A stretch of 52,229 nucleotides of DNA from a virus. Location of the stretch: positions 1 through 52,229 of IMG/VR virus record IMGVR_UViG_3300029787_000064; one strand, given 5' to 3'. The notes below the pieces were generated by a model, which saw nothing but the letters and a program-made list of their open reading frames with translations, was not told the origin of the DNA and made no database searches. The translations under genes and the position numbers were made by a program. Each line of letters opens with the position of its first letter. Position 1 is the first letter of the stretch. This document shows positions 3,531 to 7,495 of this stretch, piece after piece.

Positions 3531-3579
3531 GATGTTTTTCCTTTCCAAATTGATTAACGTCATAAGGATAATATAATTA

Positions 3580-3704: not shown

Positions 3705-3811
3705 GGAAGGTTGATGCTTCAGGAGTCAGATGGCTGCGAAGCCCGATCCCCGATCAGCCCGATCTGCTGCCTGCCCGATCCAGTACGAACAATTGTTCGC
3801 TCTCCAGCCAG
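3705..3811. repeat. GC-rich intergenic repeat block with perfect CGAACAATTGTTCG
   Basis: This block lies between the terminator of the cyclotransferase gene and P2. It contains several CCCGATC units, CTGCTGCCTGC, and the perfect 14-bp palindrome at 3786-3799. It is visibly richer in G and C than its AT-rich surroundings. No gene is apparent. Together with P2 and the terminator it accounts for the 329-base gene-free stretch 3531-3859. Confidence 0.7.
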
Positions 3812-4851: not shown

Positions 4852-5020
4852 TTACCGCCTCCTCTATTTCATCTTCGTTTTGATTAACTTCTTCCTCTAT
4901 TGTATCAAGGTAGTGATCTACATTTTTGAAGTAAGGAATCTGACCATGTGCATCAAGATCTTCTTTAGTGCCATCACTCCAACGTATAATTATATTGTAA
5001 CCTGTGATTGTTTTTCGCAT
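4844..5020 (-). CDS. 58-residue acidic protein, first gene of the P4 operon
   Basis: ATG at 5020 is preceded by AAAGGAGAAACAA. The product begins MRKTITGYNIIIRWSDGTKED, which reads as a small beta-rich segment, and ends with a Glu/Asp-rich helix (DTIEEEVNQNEDEIEEAVND). No family is recognised. Its stop overlaps the start of the membrane peptide, so the two are probably translated together. Confidence 0.6.
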   Translation of the reverse strand: MRKTITGYNIIIRWSDGTKEDLDAHGQIPYFKNVDHYLDTIEEEVNQNEDEIEEAVND

Positions 5021-5047: not shown

Positions 5048-5079
5048 TATATAGTAATCATTGCAATATATTAAGTCAA
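5048..5079 (-). promoter_or_regulatory. Promoter P4, operator-like spacer, unusually long spacing
   Basis: On the minus strand the -10 TATATA (5048-5053) adjoins the operator-like GCAATGATTAC (5054-5064). The best -35, TTGACT, is 20 bases away rather than 17, so basal strength may be low. P4 lies back to back with the plus-strand promoter P5; about 24 T-rich bases separate the two -35 elements. Confidence 0.65.
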
Positions 5080-5103: not shown

Positions 5104-5132
5104 TTGACATAGTTTGCAATCAATACTATATA
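5104..5132 (+). promoter_or_regulatory. Promoter P5, plus strand, drives the small RNA
   Basis: TTGACA, 17 bases, TATATA on the plus strand, with the operator-like GCAATCAATAC at 5116-5126 directly ahead of the -10. It is the only clear plus-strand member of the ten-promoter set. The expected start near 5139 coincides with the foot of the terminator hairpin. Confidence 0.8.
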
Positions 5133-5138
5133 TATAGA

Positions 5139-5183
5139 AGAGTCGAGATTTTCCTTTCCAAATATTTCTCGGCTCTTTTTTTT
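5139..5183 (+). ncRNA. Candidate ~45-nt regulatory RNA: hairpin with anti-Shine-Dalgarno loop
   Basis: Directly after P5, GAGTCGAGA (5140-5148) pairs with TCTCGGCTC (5167-5175, one G-U pair) and is followed by eight T, a full intrinsic terminator. The whole transcript would be essentially this hairpin. Bases 5149-5163 of the 18-base loop (TTTTCCTTTCCAAAT) are identical to plus-strand 3536-3550. The loop RNA is therefore perfectly complementary over 15 nt to the amidoligase mRNA across its ribosome-binding site. Shorter complementarity exists to the start regions of the XRE gene (9 nt) and the gene at 5403-5843 (8 nt). No protein can be encoded. Base-pairing control is inference; the alternative is a transcription blocker between divergent units. 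Confidence 0.6.
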
Positions 5184-5402: not shown

Positions 5403-5843
5403 TTACCCCCTTTCTTTCCACAAAGTTAATGTTCCGTCTGTTGATTCTTCCTTACCGAAGTAAACAACTCCTCTCCAGTCTGGAGAAATTTCTTTGCCGC
5501 CATACCAGTCAGTAACTTTGAAAAGTTTGTTCTCTTTCGGATTGTACTCAACTTGGTCGTGATCTCCACACAATGTCCAAGAACTTCTCCACTTGCCTTT
5601 GACAAAAGCGTGAACATATTTCTTGTTTTCTGCTACCACTTTTTGTCTGGTCTTTTCATGGACAATAAATTGTGCATCATCCAATCTAGCCATATCGATG
5701 TACCCAACTGTGATCCATCTTTTTTTGCCTTCACAGTTTGGAATATTCATCTGGATACTATTTGTATAGCTTCTCAAGTTTCTGAACATTCTAACTTCTG
5801 TTCCGTCTGCTATACTTGTTTTTTCTAAGTAGTCTTTTTTCAT
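5403..5843 (-). CDS. 146-residue protein of unknown function
   Basis: I place the start at ATG 5843 because GGAAAGGAT lies just upstream; the longer open frame continues into the GC-rich repeat block and is not credible. The product is soluble, Trp- and Lys-rich, with MDYLEK-like charged N-terminus, GKKRWITVGYIDMARLDDAQF in the middle and FKVTDWYGGKEISPDWRGVVYFG near the end. No family is recognised. It is a one-gene unit with promoter P6 and its own terminator, the pattern of a phage accessory gene. Confidence 0.65.
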   Translation of the reverse strand: MKKDYLEKTSIADGTEVRMFRNLRSYTNSIQMNIPNCEGKKRWITVGYIDMARLDDAQFIVHEKTRQKVVAENKKYVHAFVKGKWRSSWTLCGDHDQVEYNPKENKLFKVTDWYGGKEISPDWRGVVYFGKEESTDGTLTLWKERG

Positions 5844-5876
5844 AACATATCCTTTCCTGTTGTTTGTTATGATTCT

Positions 5877-6894: not shown

Positions 6895-7495
6895 TTACAG
6901 CCTGGTGGCGACACCTGCAGCGTAACAACTGCGAACAATTGTGAGTATTCACCAGCACAGCAGCAGGTACACCTGGCGAAGGAGGCTTTGCAGCACCTGC
7001 TGGACCTCCCAGAACGAACAATTGTGAGCGTTCAGGACAGGACGCAGCGAGTCCCGATCCGATTCACCCCGATCCCGCCTGGGCAGCACACCCTGCTGGA
7101 CCTGACTCCGAACAATTGTGCGTGTTCAGCAGCAGGATACGCCTGGACAGCCTCCCGATCCCGATGCCTCCCCTGCTGCCTGACCAGGGCAGGACCCTGA
7201 AGACGAACAATTGTGAATATACAGCCTGCAGCAGGAGGCTAGGACAGCTTCGATCCCCGATGCTTAACCTGCTTCCAGCCCAGGCAGCATTCCTGAGTCC
7301 GAACAATTGTCGGTATTCACCCCGATGCAGGAGGCTGGAGCCCGATCCGATCCCGATAACCTGCACCTGAAAGCGAACAATTCTACGCATTGGCAGCGTA
7401 AAACATCCCGATCTATACTCCCGATCCCAATTCTACTGGAAATTGTTCGGTAACTCCGTGCCCAGATACGCCAAGTGCAGACCCCGATTGACCCA
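6895..7495. repeat. GC-rich array of six ~90-bp degenerate units carrying CGAACAATTGT
   Basis: CGAACAATT occurs at 6932, 7015, 7109, 7204, 7300 and 7374, all in the same orientation, spaced 83, 94, 95, 96 and 74 bases, with a reversed AATTGTTCG at 7441. Between copies, CAGCAGG/CCTGCTG and CCCGATC strings recur. Several units are dyad-symmetric: CCTGCTG before and CAGCAGG after the 7109 copy, GCAGG-n3-CTG before and CAG-CCTGC after the 7204 copy. I count 72 G/C in bases 7021-7140 (60%), far above neighbouring genes. Frames across the array (for example 7064-7390 minus) only translate the repeat. It lies immediately downstream of the small-terminase-like gene and upstream of P7, and accounts for the gene-free stretch 6864-7498. 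It is not a CRISPR: the identical part is only about 10 bases. Confidence 0.8.

Follow-up and report, generated by a model that had tools for sequence, protein, structure and literature searches.

A predicted phage small RNA of terminator size, with a loop complementary to the Shine-Dalgarno region of the phage's own amidoligase gene

What could a promoter be for, if the RNA that starts from it runs at once into a terminator? The question is raised by a locus in a 52,229-nucleotide stretch of viral DNA (the window), which makes up 97% of a 53,981-base virus record. The source is a podovirus-like phage, the portal protein of which is closest to those of pelagiphages HTVC027P and HTVC023P, at ~49% identity. 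The locus lies on the plus strand, and the surrounding genes lie on the opposite strand. A sequence-only reading of the window had claimed a TTGACA-17-TATATA promoter followed by a 9-bp stem and eight T. These elements are indeed present, the promoter at 5104-5132 and the hairpin at 5140-5175, followed by the T8 run (Table 1). That is, the locus has the sequence features of a trans-acting small RNA (sRNA) gene: its own promoter and an intrinsic terminator in an intergenic region.

Table 1. Features of the predicted sRNA gene and of its candidate targets (window coordinates).
Feature	Position	Strand	Basis or remark
-35 element TTGACA	5104..5109	+	sRNA promoter; same promoter 5' of the hairpin in relatives
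-10 element TATATA	5127..5132	+	17-nt spacer from -35; TATATT in many relatives
Operator-like word AATCAATACTATA	5118..5130	+	overlaps the -10 of the sRNA promoter
Promoter of the next gene, with start codon near 5020	5051..5079	-	divergent from the sRNA promoter, back to back
Predicted sRNA, ~45 nt	5139..5183	+	start inferred 6-7 nt past the -10; intrinsic terminator only
Terminator stem, 5' arm GAGTCGAGA	5140..5148	+	fold; stem pairing in relatives
Loop, 18 nt	5149..5166	+	bases 5149-5163 complementary to the amidoligase leader
Seed CCTTTCC	5153..5159	+	in every family member found
Terminator stem, 3' arm TCTCGGCTC	5167..5175	+	fold; stem pairing in relatives
T8 run, terminator tail	5176..5183	+	sequence
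Target gene, Amidoligase_2 protein, 405 aa	2313..3530	-	Pfam PF12224, E 6e-6
Amidoligase leader with target ATTTGGAAAGGAAAA (3536-3550)	3531..3550	-	target overlaps the Shine-Dalgarno
Target heptamer GGAAAGG	3540..3546	-	kept in leaders of sRNA-bearing relatives
Candidate secondary target gene, Phage_L5_gp82-like	5403..5843	-	in an optional cassette slot
GGAAAGG, 5403-5843 gene leader	5851..5857	-	8-nt match to the loop

The stem includes one G-U among its nine pairs, and a tenth pair, A-U, may be drawn at the base. The 45-nt RNA has a folding energy of -13.6 kcal/mol, against -4.75 ± 1.89 kcal/mol for dinucleotide shuffles (z = -4.7), and none of 200 shuffles was as stable. A search of the window with 4227 Rfam families found no match at the gathering score. 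In four relatives, relaxing the search to E values up to 5 gave sub-threshold matches only, none of them on the RNA.

The operator-like word AATCAWTACTATA occurs 18 times in the window, where 6.3 copies are expected. Between 2075 and 10517 it sits over the -10 elements of promoters, mostly on the minus strand. This shared word suggests that the accessory genes of the segment, together with the sRNA, may answer to one common phage regulator. A separate repeat, the palindrome CGAACAATTGTTCG, is found 24 times in the window at three or fewer mismatches, against 1.9 expected; exact copies are at 3786, 4552, 5987, 22360, and 41536, and a cluster at 6932-7387 has one copy per 74-96 bp. These palindromes are perhaps iterons or the operator of a regulator.

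The loop offers an answer to the question. The sequence TTTTCCTTTCCAAAT occurs exactly twice in the window, at 3536-3550 and at 5149-5163, where 0.01 occurrences are expected. The claim that all 15 of these loop nucleotides are complementary to the amidoligase leader across GGAAAGG therefore stands. GGAAAGG by itself is no commoner than chance in the window (7 copies, 6.2 expected); what is unusual is the extended match and its placement on the amidoligase Shine-Dalgarno, rather than the core heptamer. Among the leaders of 69 called genes, that of the amidoligase pairs best with the loop, at -19.7 kcal/mol. It is ahead by 6.7 kcal/mol of the second-best leader, that of the 5403-5843 gene (-13.0 kcal/mol), and all remaining leaders pair at -11.8 kcal/mol or more weakly. 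On both strands of the 52-kb window, no trans site for the loop ranks above the amidoligase leader. Cofolding of the whole RNAs with RNAcofold gave little net gain, the program being unable to represent a loop-to-linear complex.

We consider it quite likely that the locus encodes a trans-acting sRNA that would pair with the amidoligase Shine-Dalgarno and block translation of the phage's own amidoligase. The proposed mechanism is as follows. A σ70-type promoter bearing the phage's shared operator would start an RNA of ~45 nt that is its own intrinsic terminator. Its single-stranded loop, UUUUCCUUUCCAAAUAUU, would pair in trans with the amidoligase mRNA at its Shine-Dalgarno region, and the simplest outcome would be that ribosome binding and initiation are blocked. 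In many relatives, the same loop could also pair with the leader of the gene in a neighboring cassette slot. In sequence comparison, the promoter, the hairpin, the seed, and the target prove conserved, pairing, and covarying; production of the RNA, repression of the mRNA by pairing in place of stabilization, and timing by the operator are inferred.

Relatives were collected through searches with the amidoligase and the slot gene, and through a pattern scan in which CCTTTCC was fixed. The same operator-promoter, of TTGACA type, was found in about 45 public viral contigs, where it is followed by the terminator hairpin and a U-run. Because the first pattern scan had fixed CCTTTCC, two further scans fixed the stem alone and left the loop free. 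The CCUUUCC seed is present in every family member, also in both loop-free scans, and no stem match outside the family has CCTTTCC, except in one contig, L056. That contig and L073 share the stem but not the operator-promoter setting, and the loop there is not conserved; both were set aside. Seven further stem-matching contigs (L072 and L074-L079) were rejected as well; their hairpins look like ordinary terminators of unrelated phages. Over 18 distinct family hairpins, the stem pairs are 100% standard; one pair shows a two-sided A-U to G-C exchange, and three vary one-sidedly. The loop is only 8-10 nt in clades c and d, with complementarity of only 8-9 nt, a point against the proposed pairing. 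The exact promoter-hairpin junction of the window had no match in viral_contigs because the junction is peculiar to the window genome. No amidoligase was found in the isolate phage collection, and blastn of the region against that collection gave weak matches only, none spanning the query. In a scan of bacterial genomes, the hairpin was found at 0 of the 80 loci with sequence checked, among the matches listed.

If the loop acts on the leader, the two should not vary independently in related phages, and they do not; this outcome favors the sequence-only reading, which had made such a comparison its decisive check. Every readable amidoligase leader of the sRNA-bearing contigs has GGAAAGG or else GGAAGGG, in which a G-U pair is preserved. 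The 8 nt from position -1 to +6 are paired in 27/27 distinct loop/leader combinations, and the reach of pairing across the combinations is 8-16 nt. Both sides have been exchanged at the flanking positions: -1 is U-A in 26 combinations and A-U in one; -2, where 20 are paired, is U-A in 10 and A-U in 10; and -3, where 14 are paired, is U-A in 10 and A-U in 4. Farther out, pairing decays. Within the seed, position 5 is A-U in 25 combinations and G-U in 2; the target heptamer varies solely from A to G, twice, with the pair preserved. A conserved, covarying seed complementary to an mRNA start region, a further mark of trans-acting sRNAs, is thus found among these contigs, related as they are.

Some limits apply to these numbers. 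Mean contiguous pairing, with kinship ignored, is 10.9 nt, against 9.7 ± 0.28 nt when loops are reassigned among leaders (none of 5000 reassignments was as long), and the covariation score, again with kinship ignored, is 0.127 against 0.063 ± 0.012 for shuffles. Kinship among the contigs means that such shuffles inflate the count of independent events; outside the invariant core, only two to four coordinated changes are seen by eye. In the A/T-rich flanks, sliding the register by -1 gives a nearly equal covariation score of 0.121, though with far fewer of the cells paired (67.5 versus 83.2%). In addition, part of the conservation of GGAAAGG could be for translation alone, since the heptamer is itself a usable Shine-Dalgarno.

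L009 and L012 combine a type-a loop with the other amidoligase type, and their leaders, GGAAAGGAAAA, fit the type-a loop further, whereas sister leaders with type-c1 loops read GGAAAGGT. In L054/L104, a type-a loop accompanies an amidoligase nested among type-c1 ones; the leader keeps GGAAAGGT, and pairing is shorter.

These changes bear on two other ways in which loop and leader might have come to match. One is copying, by duplication or gene conversion, without regulatory pairing: GGAAAGG lies on the same strand at both places, and identity by descent would be expected of a copy. Such an origin is highly improbable, as the similarity is confined to the pairing stretch, and pairing accounts better for the changes that preserve pairing as G-U in two lineages (L006/L010/L029 and L086) and for the U-A/A-U swap in the L060 group. 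The other is mimicry of the 3' end of 16S rRNA, so that the RNA would affect host or phage translation broadly rather than one gene. Alphaproteobacterial 16S rRNA ends in CCUCCUUUCU. The loop resembles the extended anti-Shine-Dalgarno of this RNA, which may or may not be the host's; CCUUUC is common to both, and the CAGCCAAAGGAG leaders common in these phages could pair with the loop over 5 nt. We hold a broad effect of this kind to be very unlikely, given that pairing with one gene's leader extends over 8-16 nt, with covariation outside the shared hexamer, while other leaders pair with the loop much more weakly.

A profile search for amidoligases, made irrespective of RNA presence, added four contigs (L088, L089, L090, and L092) in which no hairpin was found over their 5-7.6 kb. 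L088 has the gene order of the window. The amidoligase leaders of all four read AAAAAGGGAAA or AAAGAGGAAA and are without GGAAAGG; hairpin and heptamer are missing together, a point in favor of the proposed pairing. Since the four make up a single, fully supported branch of the amidoligase tree, inside it under midpoint rooting, the lack of both hairpin and target is counted, on these sequences, as a single event of joint loss or absence. An RNA could lie elsewhere in these genomes, because its absence was seen on contigs of this length.

The predicted RNAs differ greatly in size: 45 nt in the window, 47 nt in the L060 group, 61 nt in the L008/L038 group, and 283 nt in the L020 group. The RNA of ~45 nt that is all terminator, as first proposed, thus describes the window genome, which has the shortest form; it does not describe the relatives (47-283 nt), most of which have extra 5' elements. 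Short forms recur in three lineages, namely the window and the L060 and L008/L038 groups. In the longer RNAs, promoter and terminator are separated by extra modules: two hairpins (GACAGTAATGGTTTACAGTAT and CCTACTCCTAGGTAG), a conserved 44-nt element, and a module, in one or two copies, with the appearance of an H-type pseudoknot (GGUC...GGGGGUU...GACC...AACUCCCCC; the other copy, AGUC...GACU). As the longer RNAs vary in their 5' modules while the promoter and the terminator loop stay, the window's RNA is, by this comparison, the extreme of the family, and promoter and terminator loop are its constants.

The predicted pseudoknot module lies 5' of the hairpin in L020, L028, L044, L093, and others. 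In L020, the copies are on the minus strand, from 1634 and from 1576. There is an A-U/G-C exchange between copies in the first stem, and no Rfam match to the module was found in L020 or L028.

The modules raise a different reading, in which the hairpin merely terminates a longer structured RNA that works through its 5' part, the loop-leader match being a by-product of purine/pyrimidine richness. Many relatives do have long 5' modules (pseudoknot-like repeats, the conserved hairpin), and in the contigs these are found nowhere but inside this RNA. The modules are variable, however, and are absent from the window and from the L060 and L008/L038 groups, whereas seed and promoter are constant, and loop and leader covary; we consider the reading unlikely. 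With the loop kept as the active part, the modules may still have a role. A tentative and rather doubtful proposal is that of a cartridge-like family of phage sRNAs, in which the operator-promoter and the seed-loop terminator are constant, exchanged 5' modules would tune or sense something, and the loop would control the amidoligase plus whichever gene with a matching leader occupies a swappable slot.

In L060, L064, L071, and L105, the sRNA has a 5' tail, UCGUUGU, that is complementary to ACAACGA in the amidoligase leader, ~14 nt upstream of GGAAAGG. This is a possible second pairing site of the L060 group.

Shorter loop matches had also been claimed at the 5403-5843 gene (8 nt) and at the XRE gene, 1404-1805 (9 nt), and both exist; their prospects as targets differ. 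In many contigs, the gene just past the RNA is preceded by a leader of the kind ACAACAGGAAAGGAAATGTT-ATG. The open reading frames (ORFs) that follow begin MKKDYLEK, MEEDFTYA, MKLSKEQI, MKVRVYKN, MNDDVVFY, MLTFKHFN, or MTRIPFLN and, judged by eye, look unrelated. What is conserved in the slot is the GGAAAGG leader, with a varying ORF. Because the slot ORFs differ, and because the cassette is missing in some contigs that retain the RNA, the amidoligase is the predicted constant target; the slot gene would be optional, and thus the 5403-5843 gene, its 8-nt match and conserved leader notwithstanding, a secondary target at most. The XRE match, GAAAGGAAA, lies 5' of its gene and overlaps the end of the preceding coding sequence. 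As the same stretch is present in L088, in which the RNA was not found, the XRE leader was dropped as a target; the match is probably irrelevant and unspecific.

A literature search returned no paper linking a phage sRNA to an amidoligase, and the paper on HTVC023P-type pelagiphages mentions no sRNA. To our knowledge, few phage sRNAs with a conserved, covarying target in the genome of the phage itself are on record, and hardly any from uncultured phages. The predicted sRNA offers an entry to the role of the amidoligase in the phage and to why its dose must be limited.

VpdS and PreS are phage-encoded regulatory sRNAs (reviewed in PMC12197685). Unlike these, the window RNA is terminator-only, and it is conserved together with its target across a group of uncultured phages. 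Presumably, VpdS and PreS also differ from it in sequence and architecture. A closer likeness is to DicF, an sRNA of the Qin cryptic prophage of E. coli, which is very short, resembles a Rho-independent terminator, and represses ftsZ mRNA (PMC5069750, PMC10448788, PMC12197685). Both are very short, terminator-like, phage-derived RNAs, repression being predicted in the present case. DicF is encoded in the dicBF operon and acts on host cell division, whereas the window RNA has its own promoter and a phage-encoded target; in the Rfam search, no sequence relation was seen. At 45 nt, with the terminator as the whole regulator, the window RNA would be near the minimal size for such a device.

The loop itself recalls the α-r14/NfeR1 sRNAs of rhizobia, in which loops with an ultraconserved anti-Shine-Dalgarno seed silence mRNAs at the translation start (PMC10746234). 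The likeness is that of an anti-Shine-Dalgarno seed in a hairpin loop, directed at a translation start. NfeR1 is bacterial, has three hairpins with CCUCCUCCC, and has many metabolic targets (PMC10746234). In place of the three hairpins, each with a CCUCCUCCC loop, the present family has a single conserved CCUUUCC loop. Unlike NfeR1, the window RNA is phage-borne, carries this seed in the terminator loop, and has one constant predicted target.
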